The notes under the pieces were generated by a model, which was not told the DNA's origin, did not search any database, and was given only the letters and a program-made list of their open reading frames with translations. This document shows, one piece after another, positions 8,199-46,190 of a stretch of DNA of 64,000 nucleotides. Numbering within the stretch: position 1 is the first letter of the stretch; every line of letters begins with the position of its first letter. The position numbers and the translations under genes are program-made. The stretch is from Fimbriimonadales bacterium (GTDB lineage Bacteria > Armatimonadota > Fimbriimonadia > Fimbriimonadales > GBS-DC): NCBI GenBank assembly GCA_025998675.1, contig AP024673.1:2860562-2924561 (forward strand), in the 5' to 3' direction.

Positions 8199-8352
8199 AG
8201 TGTCTGTATAGTGAATTTTCAGCGACTCCCCTGCCTGCGCATGCGCGTAATTTGGAGTGCTGAAGCGGGAGCTTCAGCGTCGCGGAAGCGCCGCTTCCGC
8301 ACTCCATACAGACGGAGCAGCGCGCATGTCGCAATTCTTGTGCAAAGGCACG
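8199..8352. repeat. MITE-like element, family A (decayed copy)
   Basis: It starts AGTGTCTGTATAGTG and ends TGCAAAGGCACG. In reverse orientation it matches the element at 44766-44925 over nearly its whole length. The 52-base core (8254-8305) is GGAGTGC...GCACTCC and contains two nested hairpins, GAAGCGGGAGCTTC and GGAAGCGCCGCTTCC. The terminal repeats have diverged and the flanking TA is missing, so this copy looks older than the one at 44766. Confidence 0.75.
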
Positions 8353-15248: not shown

Positions 15249-15407
15249 ATGGACGCCAAGACGATGCTGGAGCAACTCGCCGTGCCTGAGCTGCCGCTGC
15301 GAGTCGACGAGCGAGGCTTCCTGAGGGTCGGGAACACGCGCGTTGGACTGGATACGGTGCTTCTCTACTTTCAACAGGGCGCAACGTATGGAGTGCTGAA
15401 GCGGTAG
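15249..15407 (+). pseudogene. DUF433-type antitoxin remnant truncated by a repeat element
   Basis: The 52-codon frame starts MDAKTMLEQLAVPELPLRVD and contains GFLRVGNTRVGLDTVLLYF followed by QQGAT. That is the core of DUF433 proteins, VapB-like partners of PIN toxins, which continue for another 25 or so residues. Here the frame runs straight into the family A core at 15390 and stops at a TAG inside it (15405-15407). A TATTGT box seven bases before the ATG resembles the leaderless promoters of this genome. No toxin gene follows. The gene is best read as disrupted by insertion of the repeat. Confidence 0.6.
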
Positions 15408-15482
15408 CTTCAGCGTCGCGGAAGCTCCGCTTCCGCACTCCATAAATTGCCACTTTGCGAACTATGACCCGCCGATTGGTAT
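15390..15482. repeat. Composite element: family A core with family B right end
   Basis: A 52-base GGAGTGC...GCACTCC core (15390-15441) is followed by a family B end, TTTGCGAACTATGACC to GATTGGTAT (15454-15482). The core is nearly identical to those at 8254, 20486 and 44817. The left boundary coincides with the loss of homology in the DUF433 remnant. Confidence 0.7.
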
Positions 15483-25615: not shown

Positions 25616-25841
25616 ATACCAATCTGCGCATCAAACTTCGTAATTGCTGTGCGCCTACAGCCAGAGCCACGCGCTTTGTTGCCCTCACCCCCAGCCCCTC
25701 TCCCGCGCGGCGGGAGAGGGGAGCCGTGCAAGCGGCGCACGATGCGCTATCCCCCTCTCCCGAACCTTCGGGAGAGGGGGACAAAGGGGGTGAGGGCTGC
25801 AAGCGTCGCTGATTTACGAACTATGACGCGCAGATTGGTAT
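25616..25841. mobile_element. Family B element, complete copy with inverted ends
   Basis: The 226-base unit starts ATACCAATCTGCGCATCA and ends with the near-exact inverse TGACGCGCAGATTGGTAT; the match extends inward to TTCGTAA/TTACGAA, giving terminal inverted repeats of about 28 bases. It contains two strong hairpins: CCCCTCTCCCGC/GCGGGAGAGGGG, and CCCCCTCTCCCGAA/TTCGGGAGAGGGGG (25751-25780). There is no coding capacity, so it is a MITE-like element that needs a transposase from elsewhere. Confidence 0.7.
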
Positions 25842-43720: not shown

Positions 43721-44698
43721 TCACTCGCCCGGATAGCGCACGCCCCACTGGGCGCGCAGCGCGTCCAGCGTGCGCATAATCGCCAGCGTTTCGTCCAACG
43801 GCATCCACGGGCTTTCGGTCCGCCCCTGCCGCAGGCAGTCATGCACATGGCGAATTTCAAACTGCAATCCGTCGCCTTCGTAGGGGTACAGCAGGTGTTC
43901 GGTCGTCCCATCGCGACGCACAAGATAGGCTTCCGAAGGCTTCCACCACGGGGCGGGCAGGTGAATGCGCGCCTGCGCGCCGCAGAGGTTCGCCTGCTTG
44001 GGCATCTCCACCTGCAGCGACGCGCTCAGCACCGCCTGCGCGCCGCTGGCGTAGCGGAACAGTATGCTGCACAGCTCATCCACGCCCGTTGCGCCCAGCG
44101 TCGCCTGTGAGAGGATCTCCTGCGGTTCTCCCAGCACCATAAACGCCAGCGCGACGGGGTAAACGCCGACATCGAGCAGAGCGCCGCCGCCCAGCTCGGG
44201 CGCAAACAGTCGGCTGGCGGGGTTGAACTCGGGTTGGAAGCCGAAGTCCGCCTGCAGGTATCGAATCTCGCCCAGCTCGCCCGCTTCGATGCGGCGCACA
44301 ATCTCGCGCACGACAGGGAAACAGCGCGTCCACATCCCCTCCATCACGAACTTGCCCGCCGCGCGCGCCGCCTGAATCACCGCTTCGGCTTGCGCTGCGT
44401 TGACCGTGAAGGGCTTCTCACACAGCACATGCTTGCCTGCCTGAAGCGCGGCGAGGGTGTTCTCCGCGTGCAGTGTGTGCGGCGTCGCCACATACACGAT
44501 TTCTACTTCGGGGTCGCTCAGCACGGCGTCGTAGCTACCGTAGCGTTTGGGGATGCCGTACTGCGCGCCGAACTGCTCGGCGGTGCGCAACTCGCGCGAG
44601 CCGACGGCGACCACCTGCGCGTCGGGCACATAGAACGCCGCCTGCATAAACCGCTTCGCAATCTTGCCCGTGCCCAGAATACCCCACTTCACTGGCAT
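43721..44698 (-). CDS. Gfo/Idh/MocA family oxidoreductase
   Basis: The 325-residue NAD(P)-dependent enzyme begins VKWGILGTGKIAKRF (Rossmann), continues with VYVATPHTLHAENTLAALQAG and HVLCEKPFTVN (the EKP motif with catalytic Lys), and has a C-terminal domain with GGGALLDVGVYPV. Similarity to the dihydrodiol/glucose-fructose oxidoreductase group is apparent. ATG 44698 follows a TATCCT box (44706-44711) by seven bases. It is probably monocistronic, and the sugar substrate is unknown. Confidence 0.9.
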   Translation of the reverse strand: MPVKWGILGTGKIAKRFMQAAFYVPDAQVVAVGSRELRTAEQFGAQYGIPKRYGSYDAVLSDPEVEIVYVATPHTLHAENTLAALQAGKHVLCEKPFTVNAAQAEAVIQAARAAGKFVMEGMWTRCFPVVREIVRRIEAGELGEIRYLQADFGFQPEFNPASRLFAPELGGGALLDVGVYPVALAFMVLGEPQEILSQATLGATGVDELCSILFRYASGAQAVLSASLQVEMPKQANLCGAQARIHLPAPWWKPSEAYLVRRDGTTEHLLYPYEGDGLQFEIRHVHDCLRQGRTESPWMPLDETLAIMRTLDALRAQWGVRYPGE

Positions 44699-44710
44699 AG
44701 GAGAGAGGAT

Positions 44711-44760
44711 ACCCATTCGGGAAGAACAATTAAGCCGTCTTTCACACAATGGGTATACTC
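44711..44760. repeat. Duplicated promoter segment, copy 1
   Basis: GAAGAACAATTAAGCCG and the following bases up to GGGTATACTCGC match 46246-46295 at about four of every five positions. It holds a reverse-strand promoter for the oxidoreductase and a forward TATACT (44751-44756). A family A element is inserted just downstream. Confidence 0.6.
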
Positions 44761-44765
44761 GCTTT

Positions 44766-44925
44766 TAAGTGTCTTTGCACGAGAATTGCGACATGCGCAT
44801 GCAGCACCGCCTTTATGGAGTGCGGAAGCGGAGCTTCCGCGAGGCTGAAGCTCCCGCTTCAGCACTCCAAATTACGCGCATGCGCGGACAGCGGAGTCGC
44901 TGAAAATTCACTGCAAAGACACTTA
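44766..44925. mobile_element. MITE-like element, family A, with perfect terminal inverted repeats
   Basis: The 160-base element starts TAAGTGTCTTTGCA and ends TGCAAAGACACTTA, a perfect 14-base inverted repeat including a TA at each edge. A TA duplication is what IS630/Tc1-mariner-type transposition produces. Inside is the 52-base GGAGTGC...GCACTCC double-hairpin core (44817-44868). There is no coding capacity. It separates the forward promoter at 44751 from the gene at 44973. Confidence 0.75.
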
Positions 44926-44972
44926 GTCCGTGCCGCTTTCGCAGCGATCCAAACTAATGACGGGAGGCAACT

Positions 44973-46190
44973 GTGAGAATCATAGCATGTTTGGCGATTC
45001 TGTTCACAGGGCTGCTTGCCGAATCTCAGACATCCGAAACGCCTGTGGCAAGTTCCCTGCCCACGCCTGCGTCCACCGTTCTGTTCACGATTCCCTACGG
45101 CAGCGCCGAGAACCAGATTTACATCGAGTCTACACCGGGTCCAGGTGAAGGCGAGTTTGGACTCGGATTAGCCCCCGTTGGATTCTGTGTGCTGGCAGAC
45201 GACAGTGTTGCGCTTGTGGGAGGTCGTCCTGCGAGTTCTTCACACGAATTGGCGGTTCAGGTCTTTGCACAGGATGGACAGTTGAAACGATTTGTACCCC
45301 ACCCTAGTGTGTACACATTTGATAGAACATCGGTGCTTTTACATCATGACGGGAGTGTCTATTATATCGCGAGCAATGTGTTCGTGGACTATCTCTATGA
45401 GCGTCCGTCCAGTGCGCCTGACCCCGATCACAATCACCCTGACTCATCCGATACGAAAGACAAGCCTCTTTCGGAGAAAACCCTCGCTATATCACGGTTG
45501 CTCACAGTCGTCGACGCGAAAGGTAAGGTGGATGCCACGCTTACTGAGGCTCTGCGCGACCAACTGCGTTCCCTGCTTAGCGCACGGGACGACCTCTGGT
45601 CGTTCGGAGACTATGCAGTGGTGGACGGGCGTGGAACGGTGTATATTTCTGTTCTCCTGGCTTCGCGTGCGGGCGAGGAGTATGCAAAGACTCCACTGGC
45701 AAAGCTATCGCCAACAGGTGCGGCGGAATGGGTTGAGGAGCCACCTGGACGGTTGGTACGCTCGTACGATGGAAGTATGGCATATGTGAAGTTTGAACGG
45801 CATGAAAATCCTCGCGACGAAGCGTGGGTATCAGCATATACCTTTGTGGATACAGGTGGGAAGCAGATAGCACGTTTTCAAGCGCCGCCCAGAGCGAGTC
45901 GCCGCTCGCTTATCACACTTGATCCTGTATTGATTCGCCGTGACCGATTGGCGATTGTGTCCTTTGAGGGTACGCCGCCAGACAAGCCGAATCGCGCTGC
46001 CCAAATCCCCTTGCCTTTCCAAGCGTATTACCGATTGATGGTAATCACCCCTGAGGGCAAGATTGTGCATGAGGATTGGGTGCAGGGACCGCCTGTAGCG
46101 GGTTCGTGCGCAACAGATGGCAAGGGAAACCTGTACTATCTGAACTTCACCGACGAGGGAGTGGAGGTAAAGAAGATTTCGGTTCCGTAG
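44973..46190 (+). CDS. Hypothetical exported protein
   Basis: The 405-residue protein starts at GTG 44973 after GGGAGG and has an N-terminal export signal (MRIIACLAILFTGLLAESQ). The remainder is beta-rich with repeated patterns such as DDSVALVGG, HDGSVYYIAS, GRGTVYISVLLAS and GKGNLYYLNFTDEGVEV, which suggest a beta-propeller. I recognise no specific family or catalytic residue. It is somewhat less GC-rich than its neighbours. The promoter is probably at 44751, now separated by the MITE. Confidence 0.7.
   Translation: MRIIACLAILFTGLLAESQTSETPVASSLPTPASTVLFTIPYGSAENQIYIESTPGPGEGEFGLGLAPVGFCVLADDSVALVGGRPASSSHELAVQVFAQDGQLKRFVPHPSVYTFDRTSVLLHHDGSVYYIASNVFVDYLYERPSSAPDPDHNHPDSSDTKDKPLSEKTLAISRLLTVVDAKGKVDATLTEALRDQLRSLLSARDDLWSFGDYAVVDGRGTVYISVLLASRAGEEYAKTPLAKLSPTGAAEWVEEPPGRLVRSYDGSMAYVKFERHENPRDEAWVSAYTFVDTGGKQIARFQAPPRASRRSLITLDPVLIRRDRLAIVSFEGTPPDKPNRAAQIPLPFQAYYRLMVITPEGKIVHEDWVQGPPVAGSCATDGKGNLYYLNFTDEGVEVKKISVP

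Follow-up and report, generated by a model that had tools for sequence, protein, structure and literature searches.

What is the 160-bp element at positions 44766-44925 of the 64-kb window (the whole stretch of DNA analysed, genome positions 2860562-2924561), and do its ends and its centre belong to one replicator or to two? The features on which the answer rests are the following.

44766..44925, + strand: complete copy of MITE-A carrying a REPIN; at least 42 unique genomic places, TA at both ends
44766..44767, no strand: left copy of the TA target site; where another copy is inserted, five relatives have an empty site with a single TA
44924..44925, no strand: right copy of the TA target site; same evidence as for the left copy
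44766..44778, + strand: left terminal inverted repeat of MITE-A; the A1 arm is 44766-44816
44913..44925, - strand: right terminal inverted repeat of MITE-A; the A2 arm is 44869-44925
44817..44868, + strand: REPIN core, made of a G-type REP (from 44817) and an inverted T-type REP (ending at 44868)
8199..8352, - strand: decayed MITE-A copy, with its REPIN at 8254-8305

The first-pass annotation had described a mobile, non-coding element with perfect 14-base inverted ends and TA borders. These ends were confirmed: positions 44766-44779 read TAAGTGTCTTTGCA, of which 44912-44925 are the exact reverse complement; as the ends include the self-complementary TA, 12 of the bases are informative. The TAAGTGYCNTTGC end pattern, with one mismatch allowed, yielded 62 + 62 matches in the genome, versus 9 + 13 for the reversed pattern. 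Thus, these ends are present genome-wide far beyond chance. The family, which we call MITE-A, has arms of approximately 51 and 57 bp terminating in the inverted repeat TAAGTGYCTTTGC. It occupies at least 42 unique places of the 2.99-Mb, single-contig genome, with identities from 100% down to 79%; this count is a minimum, 40 of 175 first-look candidates having been scored. The window element is therefore short, non-coding, bounded by terminal inverted repeats and present in many copies, as MITEs are defined. The decayed inverted copy also reported at 8199-8352 was recovered on the opposite strand, with 90% identity over query bases 4-158 and both TA ends lost. As a single strand, the window element folds far better than its shuffled versions (z scores of -8.25 for RNA and -8.87 for DNA). 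In the predicted structure, the ends of the element close a single long hairpin; the double hairpin proposed earlier holds as an alternative local fold of the REPIN core.

Evidence for transposition came from relatives, at copies other than that of the window. At the site of the copy at 1517102-1517262, all five aligned relatives (G008, G002, G004, G011 and G006) have an uninterrupted sequence with a single TA. Similarly, the site of the copy at 1304346-1304504 is uninterrupted in G008, with a small indel beside the TA, and two of seven joined-flank probes (L028 and L008) gave junction-spanning matches among the matches listed. Duplication of the target site is thus documented by empty sites for MITE-A, and the claim of mobility stands on these sites together with the genome-wide copy count. 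TA is found at both ends in 29 of the 39 MITE-A pairs in fetched DNA. At 1517102-1517262, the stop codon of the gene upstream begins with this TA; insertion of MITE-A there restores a stop because the element begins with TAA on both strands. We tested 22 complete copies: at 14 of their 44 ends, the TA of the element exactly terminates an open frame of 100 codons or more, versus 4 of 44 in each of the other two frames (Fisher p 0.0015 for 14/44 vs 8/88). As 20-26% of the window TA sites at large end an open frame in a given frame, this signal mainly reflects a deficit in the other two frames, and such a count cannot tell truncated genes from neutral insertions. Two MITE-A copies lie end to end with one TA in common (1435880-1436198), as expected if one copy lands in the TA of another.

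Some neighbourhoods of MITE-A deserve mention. At genome positions 2431491-2431652 (L016), a copy lies between genes read from their translations as ffh and purK, and its ends form both stop codons. No empty site was found there, since the ffh matches in relatives extend to the end of the gene but the purK matches are on other contigs, a separation that is perhaps a sign of rearrangement where the element lies. CRISPR-like repeats (GTTTCAATTAGCACCCACCCTTGGGGGTGAATGCTAC) adjoin several MITE-A copies (flanks of L012, L014 and L020), and at L012 the sequence right after MITE-A reads as the remainder of such a repeat.

The centre of the element had been overlooked by the first-pass annotation. Its 52 bp (44817-44868) consist of two inverted units, GGAGTGC(G/T)GAAGC...GCTTC(C/A)GC, of a separately mobile kind. 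The genome contains 132 + 125 such REP units (257), whereas the reversed pattern gave 0 + 0, and the fetched loci of this genome hold 94 inverted REP pairs, i.e. REPINs. Of the 172 halves scored, 81 have G-C at the variable stem position, 80 have T-A and 11 a mismatch; these figures in large part reflect the constant difference between one half of a REPIN and the other. A RAYT gene is present at 1509170-1509907 (minus strand), scoring 99.9 bits against the NF047646 model for REP-associated tyrosine transposases (cut-off 80), with REPs on both sides. Its counterpart in the sister species G008 has the same gene neighbourhood, scores 100.7 bits against that model and is preceded by four tandem T-type REPs and followed by four G-type REPs. 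The core thus has the features of a REPIN, namely an inverted REP pair, a hairpin and a high copy number, along with a RAYT gene that has the same REPs on its two sides. As its head is GGAG and not GT(A/G)G, we did not assign it to the GTAG-type REP superfamily.

A second family of ends surrounds REPINs in the same genome. MITE-B is bounded by TACCAATC...GATTGGTA, with 53 + 53 matches and none for the control. Among its 42 complete pairs in fetched DNA, 28 have identical 3-bp flanks of the form TNA. As the target duplications differ, TA for MITE-A and TNA for MITE-B, the two families probably use different transposition systems. By arm alignment against shuffled sequences, the 94 REPINs are distributed as 31 A/A, 19 B/B, 4 A/B, 19 with an A arm and an unrecognized one, 3 with a B arm and an unrecognized one, and 18 with neither; by end motif alone, 38 have MITE-A ends on both sides. 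The exact 52-mer core of the window element is found in eight A elements, itself included, and in three B elements. Cores differ by 5.2% between the families, versus 3.8-5.5% within them. Outside the search motif, the mean divergence of the cores is 7%, whereas that of the arms is 19% and 26% for MITE-A and 21% and 19% for MITE-B; because the REPINs were found by their REP motif, conserved cores are favoured, a bias that leaving out the motif reduces without removing it entirely, and the A figures omit two of the 31 A/A elements that have no end motif. With the same two elements left out, divergence of the right arm correlates with that of the core (Mantel r 0.53, p 0.001) and divergence of the left arm with that of the right (r 0.39, p 0.014), so copies have partly spread as one unit; no significant correlation was found between the left arm and the core (r 0.15, p 0.16).

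The outer and inner parts also come in other combinations. In the A/B hybrids, the junction between the two families is at the REPIN and arm 1 is always combined with arm 2, consistent with exchange within the REPIN, although the hybrids are few (4 of 94) and one of them, L146, passes the threshold by a single point (26 vs 25). MITE-A is found without a core in a 106-bp copy at 2118190, with a GTAGGGGC-type core at 918091, and with a core formed by a C-rich double hairpin in G008. Likewise, MITE-B also occurs with a quite different core (CCCTCACCCCC...), its left arm being unchanged up to the switch point. Based on the shared exact cores, the A/B hybrids and the lower divergence of cores than of arms, we consider that the window element is probably a composite of two non-autonomous replicators.

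MITE-B also occurs in particular arrangements. In the window, a complete MITE-B with TCA flanks (25617-25840) is apparently inserted in another MITE-B-like element, and a REPIN at 15390-15481 has a MITE-B end beside it. At genome positions 292140-293037 (L267), four MITE-B copies are arrayed in tandem with a period of 226 bp and share TTA between them.

The enzymes that could move the outer parts were searched for in the same genome. An IS630/mariner transposase had been suggested as a partner; however, PF13358 has no match in the genome at E <= 10, while 6 of 14 control genomes match. MITE-A thus has the TA duplication of IS630/Tc1-mariner derivatives but no PF13358 transposase in its genome, and we filed it as a MITE carrying a REPIN rather than as an IS630 MITE. 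The search found no transposase with A or B ends. The only two PF01609 transposases above the cut-off proved to be copies of an IS with other ends. Four pairings of A ends 0.4-4 kb apart were found among the 100 of 124 end sites listed, one of which is an IS-interrupted MITE. A 1.8-kb span between A ends (1112590-1114380) was discarded as a candidate, being an IS701-like IS inserted in a REP hairpin, and so was an IS4-like element of G008 (L260) with an A end on one side only. IS701-like ISs coding for proteins of 501-502 residues (L079-L083) are found in REP hairpins in four of five copies and in another hairpin in the fifth.

The element or its core was matched in 3 of the 61 genomes searched, namely this one (G000), G008 and G016, and searches of phage and plasmid collections returned no match. 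Over 291 genomes of the phylum, the A end pattern exceeds background in the same three genomes only (52 + 57 in G000, 5 + 10 in G008 and 4 + 5 in G016), the background being 0-2 per strand in the other phylum genomes and the control. G016, from a different genus of the same family, has a 95% identical composite copy close to a contig end. The REPINs of G008 recovered in the 61-genome search match almost only in the core, and the three of them that were read (L032, L033 and L035) lie in other sequence.

How the two parts came together can be read in several ways. One is that of an ordinary MITE: the palindromic middle would simply belong to the element and spread only together with its ends, and the REPIN would not be a separate replicator. 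The presence of the core in 37 of the 39 A pairs at loci of this genome and the joint divergence of right arm and core agree with this reading. We nevertheless consider it improbable, because the exact 52-mer is common to eight A and three B elements, the latter with a different target duplication, the G008 REPINs match almost only in the core, two REP types flank the RAYT gene, and MITE-A also exists with other cores or none. A tentative proposal, which we would not call probable, is that REPINs are exchangeable cargo in MITE middles: RAYT would insert or swap cores in two unrelated MITE families, the composites would gain two modes of spread, and the families would, through their shared core, recombine into hybrids and duplicate host genes. 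It is also conceivable, though again short of probable, that REPINs never enter MITEs alone and that the sharing between A and B reflects homologous recombination or gene conversion after one ancient capture. The invariable arm 1 + arm 2 structure of the hybrids, joined at the REPIN, argues for the latter. So does a tandem duplication at genome positions 956048-964390 (L280), in which a gene read from its translation as restriction-modification-like (1176 and 1181 residues) is repeated in units of ~4.1 kb with REPINs at the boundaries, that on the left being an A/B hybrid. However, the 18 of 94 REPINs without recognized arms (e.g. L102 and L127) and those of G008 in a different host repeat suggest independent insertions. 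Returning to the composite of two replicators, its outer part is the TA-target MITE-A, moved in trans by a putative cut-and-paste type transposase that may have been lost from the genome or be present in an unrecognized form. The inner 52 bp are a REPIN of a population presumably maintained by a RAYT, a single-strand HUH transposase encoded elsewhere in the genome. REPINs occupy the middle of MITEs of at least two families, whose target duplications differ. The composites would spread via the MITE ends. Cores may pass between the families or be homogenized through RAYT activity, or through recombination within the REPIN common to both, an event that could also yield the A/B hybrids; the sequences do not separate RAYT-driven exchange from gene conversion.

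An alternative of another kind concerns the window locus itself, where the element would have been retained because it serves the gene at 44973 as a regulatory RNA leader. The window copy sits between divergently oriented genes, a minus-strand GFO/IDH/MocA-family oxidoreductase gene and the ORF at 44973, so that it lies upstream of the latter, and its strong fold would suit an RNA leader. The ORF codes for a 405-residue protein that matches no family and has matches in 3 of 13 genus genomes, its own included, the best other one at 31% identity. The forward promoter placed at 44751 by the first-pass annotation was not recovered: our scan found no forward sigma-70-like site, only a -10-like TATACT being visible, and the single sigma-70-like site in 44500-45100 is on the minus strand (45006-44979). 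That the mRNA of this gene carries the hairpin is thus possible but unsupported, and any effect of the window copy on the gene is unproven. Since, in addition, dozens of copies occupy unrelated sites, some exactly at stop codons between convergent genes, and Rfam gave no match within the 64-kb window, we regard an RNA leader as very unlikely.

REPINs and RAYTs are already known (Bertels and Rainey 2011, PMC3116915; Nunvar 2010, PMC2817692), and the REPs described as linked to RAYTs have a GT(A/G)G head (PMC2817692). As in those systems, the REPs here form inverted pairs with a hairpin and number more than 100 units (PMC3116915, PMC2817692), and the RAYT gene is flanked by the same REPs, with two REP variants on its sides. 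In contrast, the head is GGAG and the REPINs are embedded in MITEs that have ends and target duplications of their own. REP dimers regularly found inside longer palindromes have been described in Anabaena variabilis and Halothiobacillus neapolitanus, where, according to the same account, the outer palindrome was not found without REPs (PMC3733652). The nesting is similar here, but the REPs lie within MITEs of two families, which duplicate different targets. Empty sites are seen for one of these families, and some outer copies have no REPs or have other cores. The elements also resemble RUP, NEMIS and ERIC in being short and non-coding, with inverted ends, a strong fold and frequent positions beside genes, the likeness being one of description; unlike in those, the core here can be exchanged and forms a repeat family that also occurs in other places. 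Like MITE-A, RUP, NEMIS and ERIC target and duplicate TA. They are classed as bacterial MITEs (PMC3733652). Finally, ISPpu9 is an IS that targets REPs (PMC8450116), and the IS701-like IS here sits in REP hairpins in four of five copies; here, some of these REPs are inside a MITE and the fifth copy is in another hairpin.

A literature search that covered few subscription journals retrieved no paper on REPINs inside MITEs of Armatimonadota. The present analysis adds that REPINs lie within two MITE families, each with a target duplication of its own and one with empty sites, and that there are core-free and alternative-core copies, exact cores common to both families, and hybrids. These elements bring together two kinds of replicator that have mostly been treated separately. 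A REPIN riding the ends of another transposon would depend less on its own RAYT and could cross species, and such crossing is suggested by the composite copy, 95% identical, of another genus. Two MITE families with exactly shared cores also make RAYT insertion into palindromic centres, a way for REPINs to reach new sites, testable.

Lastly, another Y1 transposase gene at 1525060, the first that we considered as the RAYT, was set aside, as it scores as IS200-like (76.7 bits, cut-off 55) and reaches only 40.5 bits as a RAYT (cut-off 80). At this locus (L088, 1378-2148), the Y1 transposase-like protein is joined to a sigma-70 region 4-like part. Y1 matches were found in all 13 genus genomes searched, and further second Y1 matches in the genus mates G006, G007 and G010, in a search without G013-G017; the check for the fusion covered this genome. 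The fusion protein is possibly domesticated.
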